A stretch of 51,005 nucleotides of DNA from assembly GCA_020846655.1 (NCBI GenBank), contig JADLDL010000132.1, positions 1 to 51,005 of the forward strand. Direction: 5' to 3'. The notes beneath the pieces were generated by a model. It was given only the letters and a program-made list of their open reading frames with translations. It did no database searches and was not told where the DNA came from. The position numbers were made by a program, and so were the translations under genes. Shown one piece after another: positions 12,466 to 19,250 of this stretch. The stretch is from Saprospiraceae bacterium (GTDB lineage: Bacteria; Bacteroidota; Bacteroidia; Chitinophagales; Saprospiraceae). The stretch's first letter is position 1. The number at the start of each line of letters is the position of its first letter.

Positions 12466-14967
12466 TCACTCCTGCCAATACACCCGCTTGACCCGTTCCG
12501 AAATATTCGTAAACACCTCATACGGAATGGTTTGCAAGCAAGCCGCCAACTCCTGTACCGGCAAATGCTCCCCAAACACCACCACCTCGTCTCCTTCCCG
12601 GGCTTCGGGAATGTCGGTGACATCCACCATGGTCATATCCATACAGACGTTGCCGATCGTGGGCGCTCGATGCCCGTGGACCAGGACCGGGTAGCGGCCG
12701 TTGCCAGCCAAGCGCAAAAACCCGTCGGCATAGCCAATACTGATCGTCGCAATCCGGCTCGGGTGCGTCACCGGGCCATTGCGGTTGTAGCCGACTGTTT
12801 CGCCCGGACTGATTTCCTTCACCTGGCTGATGGTGGCTTTCAGGGTGTTCACTACCTGCAACTGCGGCTGCAAGCCGCTCGAGTCGAGACCGTAGAGGCC
12901 AATCCCCAACCGCACCATATCGTAATGGTACTCCGGAAAGCGCGCAATGCCGCCGGTGTTGCAAATATGCCGGAGCGGACGGTAGCCCAACGCCTGTTGA
13001 ATCGCATCGTACATCGCCGAAAACGCCGCCGCCTGCTGGTGTGTGAAGGCGTCGTGGCCGGAAGCATCGCTGGCTGCCAGGTGCGAAAAAACAGTGCGCA
13101 CCTGCACCTTGGGGTGCCGGCGGAGGCGCTCGCACAACAGCGGGATATCGGCCGGCACGAAACCCAGGCGGTGCATGCCGGTGTCCAGTTTGAGGTGGAT
13201 GGCCAGTTCCTTGTCTTTGCCGGCAAAAGCCAACAATTCGTCCAGCAGGCTCAGGCTGTACACCTCGGGTTCGAGGCGGTAGCGAAACAAGGCGTCAAAA
13301 CTGGCCGGCTCGGGGTTCAGCACCAGCACCGGCAGCCGCACGCCGGCCTGCCGGAGTTCGATACCCTCATCGGCATAGGCCACGCCCAGGTAGTCGACCT
13401 GGTGAAATTCGAGCAACTTGGCTATCTCGGCCGAGCCGCTGCCATAGCCTGCGGCTTTTACCATCACCATCATGCGGGTGCCGGGCGTCAGCAGCCGGTT
13501 GTACACATTGAGGTTGTGAACCAGGGCGCTGAGGTTGACCTCCAGCACGGTTTTGTGCGCTTTTTGCGCCAGCCGGTGCGCAATGCGCTCGAACGCAAAT
13601 GCCCGGGCGCCTTTGATGAGCACCAGTTCGTCGTGAAAATCGTGCCACTGCGCGCCTTGCAGAAACTGATCCGTATCGGCGAAAAAACGGGACTCGATAG
13701 TTGCCGGCAAATCAGCGCGCAAGGCGGGAATTTCGGTGCCAATGCCAATCAGCCGCCCTACTTTGTATTCGACCAGGGTCTTGGCAACCTGCGCGTACAA
13801 GGCGCTCTGGCGTTGGCCGCTTTGCAAAAAATCGGATAAAATCAGCGTCAGCCGGCTGCCGCGCAACTGTTGGCCGGCAAACTGCAAGGCGATGCGCAGG
13901 GAAGCCAGGTCGTTGCTGTACGCGTCGTTGATCACCGTACAGCGGTTGATGCCGGCCTTCAGTTCGAGGCGCATCTCCACCGGCTCCAATTGCCGCAGCC
14001 GCCGGCTCAGGCGCGCTGCCGGAATGCCCAGGTGCCACAGTAAGGCAATACAATGGCAGGCATTTTCCAAAGAGGCTGCGTCTGAATACGGGATCCGGCA
14101 CTCGGTAGCCTCGTCGGCTGGCGCTCCAGAGCGTTGCAGGGAAAAGGCGGTTTGGCCGCCGGGCAGGGTTTGAAATCCTGAAAACGACAGCGAGGCAGGG
14201 CGGTTTTCCTTCGACCAGGAAACGAGCGTCCGTCCCGTTTTTTCGTTGGCCCAAGCCGCTGCGGCAGTGGCGATTTCGGGATGGTCGGCGCAAAAAACAA
14301 GGGTTTGGGCTGCCGCAAACAACAACATTTTCTCCGCTACTTTTTCGCGCAGCGAGCCAAATCCTTCCTGGTGCGCGGGTCCGATATTGGTAAAAATACC
14401 AATGTTGGGGGCAATAATATGGGCCAGGCGTTCCATTTCGTGGCGCTGAGAGATGCCGGCCTCAAAAATGCCGAGGGTATGGCGGGGGCGCATTTGCCAC
14501 ACAGAGAGCGGTACGCCCACTTGCGAATTGTAACTTTTGGGGCTGCGCACCACCTGGTACTCGCGGTGCAGCAGTTGGTAAAGCCATTCCTTGACCACAG
14601 TTTTGCCGTTGCTGCCGGTAATCCCGATCACGGGGATTTCAAAAGTGGCGCGGTGTCGGGCCGCCAGGGTTTGGAGGGCCAGCAACGAATCAGCCACCAG
14701 CAAAACGTTGGCCTCCGGCAGCACGTCCGGATCGATGCTGCGGCTGACGACGAAATTGCGTACTCCCGCGCGGTATGCATCGGCGAGGTAGCGGTGGCCG
14801 TCGTGCCGCTGGCCGGGCAGGGCAAAAAACAAGGCGGCAGTGGGCGCGCTGATGCCCCGGCTGTCGAGCAGCAGCAGTTCGATCGCAGCAGCCGGGTCGT
14901 TTTTTTGCACCCAACGGGCATCGATCCATTGGCAGATGAGCGATAGGGTATGGGTGGGTATATTCAT
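12466..14967 (-). CDS. bifunctional MurF-like ligase / alanine racemase fusion
   Basis: An 833-residue fusion known across Bacteroidota. Residues 1-470 are a MurF-like ligase with LLLDSRGI, P-loop ITGSNGKTVVKEW (Lys122), YNSQVGVPLSV, NIGPAHQEGFG and INDAYSNDLASL. Residues from about 475 are alanine racemase: the PLP-lysine region is MVKAAGYGSG (usual form KADAYGHG), then LKLDTGMHRLGF, VRLGIGLYGLD, the second catalytic Tyr in GETVGYNR, and IGNVCMDMTMVDVTD. It would make D-Ala and join D-Ala-D-Ala to the muramyl tripeptide in the cytoplasm. Because a complete separate murF exists at 4661, the MurF half here may be secondary or degenerate. Divergent from tsaE with a 71-base gap. Confidence 0.93.
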   Translation of the reverse strand: MNIPTHTLSLICQWIDARWVQKNDPAAAIELLLLDSRGISAPTAALFFALPGQRHDGHRYLADAYRAGVRNFVVSRSIDPDVLPEANVLLVADSLLALQTLAARHRATFEIPVIGITGSNGKTVVKEWLYQLLHREYQVVRSPKSYNSQVGVPLSVWQMRPRHTLGIFEAGISQRHEMERLAHIIAPNIGIFTNIGPAHQEGFGSLREKVAEKMLLFAAAQTLVFCADHPEIATAAAAWANEKTGRTLVSWSKENRPASLSFSGFQTLPGGQTAFSLQRSGAPADEATECRIPYSDAASLENACHCIALLWHLGIPAARLSRRLRQLEPVEMRLELKAGINRCTVINDAYSNDLASLRIALQFAGQQLRGSRLTLILSDFLQSGQRQSALYAQVAKTLVEYKVGRLIGIGTEIPALRADLPATIESRFFADTDQFLQGAQWHDFHDELVLIKGARAFAFERIAHRLAQKAHKTVLEVNLSALVHNLNVYNRLLTPGTRMMVMVKAAGYGSGSAEIAKLLEFHQVDYLGVAYADEGIELRQAGVRLPVLVLNPEPASFDALFRYRLEPEVYSLSLLDELLAFAGKDKELAIHLKLDTGMHRLGFVPADIPLLCERLRRHPKVQVRTVFSHLAASDASGHDAFTHQQAAAFSAMYDAIQQALGYRPLRHICNTGGIARFPEYHYDMVRLGIGLYGLDSSGLQPQLQVVNTLKATISQVKEISPGETVGYNRNGPVTHPSRIATISIGYADGFLRLAGNGRYPVLVHGHRAPTIGNVCMDMTMVDVTDIPEAREGDEVVVFGEHLPVQELAACLQTIPYEVFTNISERVKRVYWQE

Positions 14968-16755: not shown

Positions 16756-17688
16756 TCATTTATCCCAACATTCCTGCTCCAGTAGTTGGGCGAATGCCGG
16801 TTCGCGCACAAGCCGCAAGTAGGTATCGCGGTTGTGCCCGGGGTTTTCTTCCGGCGGGGTGGACTGGAAAATCAGGTCCGCCAGTTGCGCCCAGCCTTTG
16901 CGCGCCAGGGTAAGTTGGGCCACACAGCGGCTGCGGGCTTCGCTTTGGCTGGGGTGAGCGCGGTGTTCGGCCTCAAGGGCCTGTTGCAGGTAGCCGGCCA
17001 GGGTTTGGTCGGTGGGCAATGTGAAATCGATCCGGTGCACCCGGGGCTCATCCGGCACATAGCGCACTGAAAAAGCGTCGCGGTCGGCCAGCGGAAACCC
17101 GTTGGGCAAGAGCACCGGCCCGGTGTCGGGCACCGAGAACAAGCCAGAAATTTGTTGGCCCGACGTGGCAGCAAACCCATAGTACACCTTTCGGCCTGCC
17201 GGCTCTTCCACCACCAGCAGTTGTGCCACGGCCGATTTTCCTTCCAGGAGCAGGCGTCGTTCGTTGTCGGGTGTAATGCTGCTGTAGAGGCTTTGCGTAC
17301 CGCTCGCTACACTGCGGTGGCTGCGTCCATACCAATTAAACCCAACAAACAGCAGGCCCACAAACAGGAGCACGCCGCCAAAAAACAGGGCGATTTGCCA
17401 GCGGTTGCGGCGTTCGCTGGTTTTGCGCAGGCGGTTGCGAGGGGTGTCTATTTTTTTATTGACCTGAAAGTCATACGAGTATCCGTTCGGCTCTTTGACA
17501 ATGCTGATTTCGCACAATTCGTCTTCGACAAAAAAGGAATAGGTGCGCGATTCTTTTACAGAAAAATCAACTTGCAGGACCCGCAAATTGCAGTGGATGA
17601 GCAAATGCCCCGTACGGTCGCCGTGGTACACCCCAATGCGGTGTTGGCTACCAAAGTCATCCAGATATACCCAGCCGACTTGCGCCAT
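16756..17688 (-). CDS. single-pass membrane protein, N-terminal FAIM1-like beta domain
   Basis: A 310-residue protein of unknown function. Residues 1-85 are beta-rich, with H16-R-I, H22-G, T26-G, a hydrophobic strand around V40-V44, F52-F-V, C59-E-I and G69-Y-S-Y-D followed by V76-N-K. By eye this spacing resembles the N-terminal domain of FAIM1. A very basic stretch (residues 84-96) precedes one transmembrane helix (about 98-119), predicting N-in topology. The extracytoplasmic C-terminal 190 residues match nothing I recognise. ATG 17686-17688 is chosen because the longer frame to 17844 runs through the ugd terminator. The gene is convergent with ald and downstream of ugd on the same strand. 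The FAIM likeness is a visual inference. Confidence 0.7.
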   Translation of the reverse strand: MAQVGWVYLDDFGSQHRIGVYHGDRTGHLLIHCNLRVLQVDFSVKESRTYSFFVEDELCEISIVKEPNGYSYDFQVNKKIDTPRNRLRKTSERRNRWQIALFFGGVLLFVGLLFVGFNWYGRSHRSVASGTQSLYSSITPDNERRLLLEGKSAVAQLLVVEEPAGRKVYYGFAATSGQQISGLFSVPDTGPVLLPNGFPLADRDAFSVRYVPDEPRVHRIDFTLPTDQTLAGYLQQALEAEHRAHPSQSEARSRCVAQLTLARKGWAQLADLIFQSTPPEENPGHNRDTYLRLVREPAFAQLLEQECWDK

Positions 17689-17829: not shown

Positions 17830-17889
17830 AAAAAAATACGTCATCCCGGAGCCCTGCGCTGGATCAAAAGCAGGTGGGATGACGTATTT
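17830..17889 (-). terminator. intrinsic terminator after ugd
   Basis: AAATACGTCATCCC (17834-17847) is the exact inverse of GGGATGACGTATTT (17876-17889), with an inner CCTGC/GCAGG pair. Read on the minus strand the stem is followed by seven T (17836-17830). It lies 24 bases past the ugd stop. Confidence 0.9.
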
Positions 17890-17912
17890 GTTCGATGGAC
17901 AGAACGGGTCTC

Positions 17913-19250
17913 TTAGGCCTTTGCCGACCGTTTTTTGCCTTTTACCACCGGCCGGCCGATGCTCAGGTATTGGAAGCCCTGGCTTTTCATCTGTTCGAGA
18001 TCGTAGAGGTTGCGGCCGTCAAAAATAACGGGGTCCTTGAGCAGGTTTTGCATCCGCTCGAAATCAGGCGTACGGAACTCGCCCCACTCAGTCATGATGG
18101 CCAGGCAATCGGCGCCCTGCAGCACCTCGTACATGTTGTTCACAAACTGTATCCGGTCGCCGTATTGTTCCTTCACGTTGGGCATAGCCTCAGGATCGAA
18201 GGCTTTGACCTGTGCGCCGGCGGCCAGCAATTCGTCGATAATGACCAATGCCGGGGCTTCGCGGATATCGTCGGTGTTGGGTTTGAAGGCCAGCCCCCAG
18301 ACACCGATGGTGCGGCCGCTGAGTTCGTTTTTGAAAAAGCGGCGGATTTTCTTCGTCAGCACACTTTTTTGAACGGTATTGACCTTCATCACCGATTTCA
18401 GGATCTTGAAATCGTAGGATTTTTCACTGGCGGCTTTGGCCAGTGCCTGCACGTCTTTTGGGAAGCAGGAACCGCCGTAGCCGATGCCTGGAAACAAAAA
18501 CCGTTTGCCGATGCGGCTGTCGCTGCCCATACCGATGCGGACCTGGTCGACGTTGGCGCCCAGTTTCTCGCAGAGGTTGGCAATTTCGTTCATAAACGAA
18601 ATGCGGGTGGCCAGGTAGGAGTTGGCGGCATATTTGGTCATTTCGGCCGAGCGTTCGTCCATAAAATAGATGGGATTGCCCTGGCGCACAAAGGGTTCGT
18701 AGAGTTGGCGCATCACTTTGCGCGCTTTTTCGCTGCGGGTGCCAATGACGACGCGGTCGGGCTTGAGGAAATCTTCCACCGCCACACCTTCGCGCAGGAA
18801 TTCGGGGTTGGACACCACGTCGAAGATCTTTTTCGGCAATTTTTCCGCCAGAATGGCGGCTACTTTTTCGGCTGTGCCTACCGGCACGGTGCTTTTGTCG
18901 ACAATCACCTTGTAGTCGCTGATCATACCAGCCAACTCGCCGGCTACCCCCATGATGTAGGAAAGATCAGCGCTGCCGTCGCCGCCGGGAGGCGTGGGCA
19001 AGGCCAGGAAAATGATTTGGCTTTTGTCGATGGCTTCGCGCAGGTTTGTGGTGAAGTGCAGACGCCCCTCCTTGGTGTTCCGGTCAAACAGGACATCGAG
19101 GCCGGGTTCAAAAATGGGGATTTCGCCGTTTTTCAGGCGTTTCACTTTCTGTTCGTTGTTGTCGACGCAAATGACGTTGTTGCCGGTTTCGGCAAAACAG
19201 GTACCCGTTACCAAACCTACGTAACCGGTACCAACGACGGCGATATTCAT
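17913..19250 (-). CDS. ugd: UDP-glucose 6-dehydrogenase
   Basis: A 445-residue cytoplasmic enzyme that oxidises UDP-glucose to UDP-glucuronate with two NAD. The N-terminal Rossmann motif is IAVVGTGYVGLVTG. The catalytic cysteine lies in GIGYGGSCFPKDVQAL near residue 260, and the C-terminal UDP-binding half has IGVWGLAFKPNTDDIREAP and FDGRNLYD. Length is normal and all key residues are present. It supplies UDP-glucuronate for polysaccharide or glycan synthesis, though no glycosyltransferase cluster is visible nearby. The closing basic tail is short. Confidence 0.95.
   Translation of the reverse strand: MNIAVVGTGYVGLVTGTCFAETGNNVICVDNNEQKVKRLKNGEIPIFEPGLDVLFDRNTKEGRLHFTTNLREAIDKSQIIFLALPTPPGGDGSADLSYIMGVAGELAGMISDYKVIVDKSTVPVGTAEKVAAILAEKLPKKIFDVVSNPEFLREGVAVEDFLKPDRVVIGTRSEKARKVMRQLYEPFVRQGNPIYFMDERSAEMTKYAANSYLATRISFMNEIANLCEKLGANVDQVRIGMGSDSRIGKRFLFPGIGYGGSCFPKDVQALAKAASEKSYDFKILKSVMKVNTVQKSVLTKKIRRFFKNELSGRTIGVWGLAFKPNTDDIREAPALVIIDELLAAGAQVKAFDPEAMPNVKEQYGDRIQFVNNMYEVLQGADCLAIMTEWGEFRTPDFERMQNLLKDPVIFDGRNLYDLEQMKSQGFQYLSIGRPVVKGKKRSAKA

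Follow-up and report, generated by a model that had tools for sequence, protein, structure and literature searches.

Known FAIM proteins and the bacterial locus

The closest described relatives of the protein studied here are represented by the Pfam family FAIM1 (Pfam: PF06905), by the structure of the human FAIM N-terminal domain (FAIM-NTD: 3mx7) and by structures of the FAIM C-terminal domain (FAIM-CTD: 2kw1 and 2kd2). Three articles (PMC6628066, PMC7056718, PMC9570119) describe FAIM as being without homology to any known protein, which hinders prediction of its mechanism. Animal FAIM is soluble and cytosolic and carries two domains in tandem, the NTD and the CTD; the NTD is reported to form a dimer (PMC6628066). 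Here we analyse a gene on the minus strand of a 51,005-nucleotide stretch of DNA from a Saprospiraceae bacterium (assembly GCA_020846655.1, contig JADLDL010000132.1), which is called the window. In its product the FAIM fold appears as a single domain on a membrane tether, a variant that is new and bacterial. The rows listed by the literature searches, which did not cover most subscription journals, mentioned no FAIM from bacteria.

In contrast to animal FAIM, the window protein has one FAIM-like domain, which is followed by a linker and a predicted transmembrane helix. Neither the Pfam results nor the structure lists contained a second FAIM domain in the part beyond the helix. Three features keep the bacterial family from being filed as FAIM proper: the window protein falls short of the Pfam cut-off, it lacks a second domain and it has a membrane helix. 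The gene and the parts of its product are as follows:

16756..17688, minus strand: whole gene, 310 amino acids plus stop, with the FAIM1-like domain, the transmembrane helix and the outer domain (open reading frame; purifying selection)
17452..17688, minus strand: residues 1-79, seven-stranded FAIM1-like beta-sandwich domain, predicted to be cytoplasmic
17395..17451, minus strand: residues 80-98, basic linker with a conserved T-P-x-N and the start of a long helix (alignments, model)
17338..17394, minus strand: residues 99-117, single predicted transmembrane helix (hydropathy 2.65)
17011..17241, minus strand: residues 150-226, strands of the outer domain, which is predicted to be periplasmic; weak likeness to DUF3592 (model strands, profiles)
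16759..17010, minus strand: residues 227-310, helices that end the outer domain, in which C255 and C307 are conserved (model helices, alignment)

Evidence for a FAIM1-like domain

In the predicted structure, residues 1-79 have the beta-sandwich fold of FAIM-NTD, and both halves of FAIM head the VIA list of the structure comparison. Profile searches point to the same family, so that the FAIM1-like fold, which the sequence-only reading had proposed by eye, finds support from both sides. We are highly confident, on the profiles and the model, that the N-terminal domain, on the cytoplasmic side, is a homologue of the beta-sandwich unit of which animal FAIM has a tandem pair.

Between the window protein and human FAIM-NTD, 16 of 83 aligned positions are identical. 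The conserved positions common to both are, in order, W6/W8, H22-G23/H23-G24, G27/G28, F52/F54 and Y72/Y77. Two motifs listed by the sequence-only reading do not hold for human FAIM-NTD: C-x-I-x-I, since it has no cysteine, and V/I-N-K, in place of which it has I-N and then G-K.

FAIM1 is the top Pfam match of the window protein, with an E-value of 0.054 for the whole protein and 0.01 for residues 1-90. The profile check which had been proposed for these residues thus puts FAIM1 first, but below the gathering cut-off of 22 bits. One relative in the family, G270/L034, reaches 27.6 bits and lies above it. When relatives were scanned one by one, FAIM1 was matched at E<=1 by 22 of 24 N-terminal domains, 30 of 37 whole proteins (best E 5.9e-7), 7 of the 11 proteins scanned from sister family f12 and 19 of 27 proteins of a divergent mix. 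In each of the four scans, any other Pfam family was matched by two members at most. As the sets overlap and their members are related, the four counts are not independent tests.

The cleanest sequence evidence is the reverse search, in which the FAIM1 model was run against 298 whole genomes of the order. It gave 12 matches at E<=0.01, against about 3 that chance would produce, and 10 of these belong to the window's protein family. Furthermore, a family profile built from 65 N-terminal domains (of 75, with near-copies removed) scored FAIM-NTD at 13.6 bits, which none of 5000 shuffled NTD sequences reached (best 11.4). In a profile-profile comparison with a single FAIM sequence, the NTD obtained 55% probability over 30 columns and the CTD 1%. 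The wider A5 profile ranked FAIM-NTD first of 177,635 PDB sequences, but with an E-value of 0.25.

Distribution and reality of the gene

A profile search detected the domain in 75 of the 298 sampled genomes of the order, with one match each, in 36 of 140 genera. Of these genomes, 64 belong to the window's family and 11 to family f12. The unusual prokaryotic setting which the sequence-only reading had suggested for the fold is supported. In total 76 loci were examined, including that of the window (L001). The profile recognised the gene in 75 of them and missed L061, which is excluded from the counts. L114 was left out of the count of long and short forms and out of the tree because of masked bases, and L140 (f12) was left out of the 11-protein f12 alignment. 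The divergent f12 member G101 was found by the FAIM1 model and missed by the family profile search.

An A2 profile search of 395 genomes of the class gave seven matches, five of them in the window's family, and an A5 search of 385 genomes of the phylum gave five matches, all in that family, with no sign of the protein family outside the order in the latter sample. A viral scan gave no family match. Several candidates were rejected: the A2 matches L054 and L055 contain a stop and run antisense to a 472-amino-acid open reading frame, and the FAIM1-model matches L035 and L040 have internal stops and no tblastn similarity to the window protein. L047 and L048 lie inside long open reading frames which look unrelated by eye.

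A separate observation comes from another class of the phylum. In genome G614, locus L046 (1330-1857, minus strand) encodes a protein of 175 amino acids which scores 25 bits with FAIM1, above the Pfam cut-off, and has a long hydrophobic stretch after the domain by eye, with only 2.0 bits in the family profile. A FAIM1 search of its order matched 2 of 128 genomes, namely L046 and one weak match. L046 is possibly a second bacterial FAIM-like lineage. As two bacterial sequences (L034 and L046) exceed the Pfam cut-off, public domain databases may already list a few.

The open reading frame lies where the sequence-only reading had placed it, with an ATG at 17688 and a stop at 16756. An alternative, longer in-frame ATG is present at 17844; the similarity of relatives starts at 17688, and most relatives in the genus have an ATG there. 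It is a real gene, because the comparison with the nearest relative gives nonsynonymous and synonymous rates of dN 0.28 and dS 2.72, that is mostly silent changes, and because it is matched in 33 of 37 genomes of the window's genus (31 near full length, two partial). Weak partial matches were found in 2 of 23 other genomes of the order. A contig scan with the window protein alone as query returned three loci; the three relatives that carry a name come from metagenome assemblies labelled Saprospiraceae and Bacteroidota.

Predicted membrane helix and topology

The predicted model has a helix spanning residues 83-132. One transmembrane helix is predicted in 72 of the 75 loci, starting at about residue 100; L124, L127 and L114, which has masked bases, depart from this. 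The 15 residues ahead of the helix hold a mean of 5.5 K/R over 72 proteins, and in 42 of 43 long forms the 15 residues that precede the helix are richer in K/R than those that follow it, which is the usual sign of a cytoplasmic N-terminus. The protein is very likely a single-pass inner-membrane protein with its N-terminal domain in the cytoplasm and its outer part in the periplasm. Both the basic stretch with one membrane helix and the order cytoplasm, membrane, outside agree, as predictions, with the sequence-only reading.

The outer domain and its absence from short forms

The outer part is predicted to consist of a helix (140-149), five strands (151-225) and five helices (227-306). C255 and C307 are each kept in 35 of 37 aligned rows, the remaining two rows being gaps, and the outer part of the 11 aligned f12 proteins has four invariant cysteines. 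Such cysteines would suit disulfides outside the cytoplasm.

DUF3592 (Pfam: PF12158) was matched by 2 of the 11 f12 proteins (best E 0.0037), and an hhalign comparison of the outer domain with DUF3592 gave 27% probability over 69 columns, a weak alignment confined to the first half of the domain. For the window protein itself no DUF3592 match was listed by Pfam. The weak likeness of the beta half to DUF3592 membrane proteins is suggestive only, and in the window protein the beta part is followed by the helical, cysteine-bearing tail. Beside this, L151 (699-1580, minus strand) encodes a protein of 294 amino acids in which a beta-rich N-terminal region and hydrophobic stretches, both seen by eye, precede a DUF3592 match; despite the similar order of parts, this protein has no FAIM1 match.

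The outer domain is missing in 31 of 74 scoreable loci, while 43 are long forms, including all 11 f12 rows. Short forms end 0-8 residues past the helix in 29 of the 31 cases, the other two being L124 and L127, and many relatives are proteins of about 120 amino acids that end right after the helix, like tail-anchored proteins. On a tree of the 74 N-terminal domains the switch between short and long forms needs five changes (4-6 over bootstrap trees), although the tree has few columns and an unsettled bootstrap, and its well-supported branches force only two. The outer domain is therefore not an essential partner, and from the short-form and single-helix counts the constant unit is the FAIM-like domain with its anchor. 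The sequence-only reading was right that the window protein has a separate outer domain, but this domain is not shared by all members, and its fold may not be wholly unknown given the weak DUF3592 likeness of its beta half.

Gene neighbourhood

Two features lie upstream of the gene:

17913..19250, minus strand: putative ugd, lying upstream in the same orientation (close to the gene in 14 of 31 genus loci)
17831..17892, no strand assigned: 17-nucleotide inverted repeat between ugd and the gene (94% pairing)

The first is putatively ugd (UDP-glucose dehydrogenase), as named in the sequence-only reading. The inverted repeat is probably the ugd terminator; an exact-pattern search located its inner 11-nucleotide pair a single time in the genome. 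The sequence-only reading had asked about conservation near ugd or ald. Among the genus loci, whose flanks are mostly 1.5 kb and in some cases shortened by a contig end, ugd lies next to the gene in 14 of 31, a linkage confined to part of the genus; ald is a neighbour in 3 of 31 and is incidental (it is more distant in one further locus, L032).

In genera other than that of the window, an scpB-like gene follows downstream in the same orientation (26 of 75 loci; no more than 300 base pairs away in 20 of these), and this linkage is seen in 14 of 28 sampled genera of the family. A DUF2480-like gene is likewise placed in 26 of 75 loci. Pfam confirms ScpB at two loci and DUF2480 at one. The downstream string of an scpB-like and a DUF2480-like gene recurs, as in L057 (2061-3211), L059 (7307-8536) and L065 (7347-9436), and in part of the loci also includes a protein of about 300 amino acids (with a transglycosylase SLT domain in L065). 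Eight neighbour proteins were given to Pfam, the other neighbour clusters being left unannotated, and neither a sigma factor nor a chaperone was among the eight. Elsewhere in the window, an open reading frame of 833 amino acids (12466-14967, minus strand) resembles by eye a MurF-alanine racemase fusion; such fusions are common in Bacteroidota.

Proposed mechanism and alternative explanations

The best explanation overall, and a likely one, is a membrane-anchored bacterial relative of FAIM with a core of domain and anchor, an optional outer module and a putative protein-binding role. One hydrophobic helix with a basic cytoplasmic collar is predicted to anchor the protein, and the outer part, beta and then helical, would be an added module. 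The FAIM-like domain may offer a protein-binding surface which holds a cytoplasmic partner or a partly unfolded client at the inner membrane face; we put this mechanism forward tentatively, as the most likely one. Where present, the outer part could tune binding from the periplasm. The scpB-like linkage in half of the family's sampled genera hints, only as a lead, at a partner that acts on chromosomes or in the cell cycle at the membrane.

Several results weigh against common descent with FAIM or against this role. Identity to FAIM is about 19%, and at 13.6 bits for the window protein and 16 bits for its domain both stay under the FAIM1 cut-off. A phmmer search of the PDB with the single protein put MsrA/MsrB first (E 0.016), and the narrower A2 profile listed six weak PDB matches, FAIM not among them. 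Foldseek, the structural check that had been suggested, did find FAIM, but with modest E-values (4.1e-3 and 8.5e-3), and FAIM-CTD was absent from its 50 listed rows and from the lists for the whole model; the structure compared is a predicted model and not a solved one. The family profile scored FAIM-CTD at 0.1 bits, which 918 of 5000 shuffles reached. With 1% profile-profile probability and a score within its shuffles, the CTD link is not proven by sequence alone. The best CTD shuffle reached 13.6 bits, equal to the real NTD score, so the shuffle test alone is moderate. The scpB linkage was absent from 9 window-genus, 14 g27 and 11 f12 sampled loci within the flanks examined. The MsrA/MsrB match was discarded: neither Foldseek search has it in its 50 listed rows, and none of the relatives leads to it in the Pfam rows shown. 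The low identity, the missed PDB searches and the CTD shuffle would fit a small beta-sandwich that converged on FAIM without common descent. We consider this very improbable, as sequence and structure independently select the same family, the two halves of FAIM come first in the VIA list, conserved W, HG, G, F and Y occupy equivalent places and 10 of the 12 FAIM1-model matches are family members. Recent transfer from, or contamination by, an animal is hardly credible: the window's assembly is in 398 contigs and FAIM was known from animals and choanoflagellates (PMC7056718), but the domain occurs across 36 genera and two bacterial families, among others on contigs of 8.37 and 7.51 million bases, and the gene has bacterial neighbours and encodes a single domain, not a pair, together with a membrane helix.

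Other readings concern the function. The role of stress or chaperone sensor that the sequence-only reading had suggested is a conjecture only. Anti-sigma factors are built as a cytoplasmic domain, a linker, one helix and a periplasmic domain, and the long forms share this order. The protein could be a single-pass signal transducer whose outer domain senses a periplasmic cue while the FAIM-like domain releases or binds a regulator. The anti-sigma factor model NF052375 (NCBIfam) gives matches at E<=0.1 for 8 of 37 members, the best with E 8.5e-5. In the four proteins where the match was placed, however, it covers residues ~78-170, that is the linker, helix and early outer part, and leaves the FAIM-like domain unmatched; the best score among the placed relatives is 22.7 bits against a cut-off of 100. 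The window protein has no match to it, and eight other relatives have none at E<=0.01. Together with the lack of a sigma factor among the eight scanned neighbours and of an outer sensor in 31 of 74 loci, this makes a transducer rather unlikely. A membrane-bound holdase, in which the domain prevents aggregation of clients as reported for animal FAIM, would follow from the homology, and PMC7056718 reports recruitment of animal FAIM to ubiquitinated, stress-induced protein aggregates. But function need not follow fold, no chaperone was among the eight neighbours, and animal FAIM has two domains, with interdomain residues that matter for its anti-apoptotic activity (PMC6628066); we regard a holdase as unlikely.

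Implications for FAIM and its probable bacterial relatives

Taking the protein as a membrane-anchored FAIM relative, one could imagine that the FAIM fold goes back to an old module of bacteria that was tethered to the membrane, and that a single-domain protein of this kind from Bacteroidota gave rise to FAIM in the common ancestor of animals and choanoflagellates by gene transfer, then tandem duplication and loss of the anchor, a history which we find doubtful. A 2025 proposal (PMC12642653) places human FAIM-NTD close to the ciliary membrane, where it would offer a conserved surface to an unknown partner. A membrane-anchored bacterial FAIM-like domain fits this proposal, without proving it. 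FAIM may thus have bacterial relatives which are open to study. From the bacterial family FAIM would gain an out-group, a minimal protein for purification, possible genetic hosts and deep alignments which reveal the FAIM surface that is kept.
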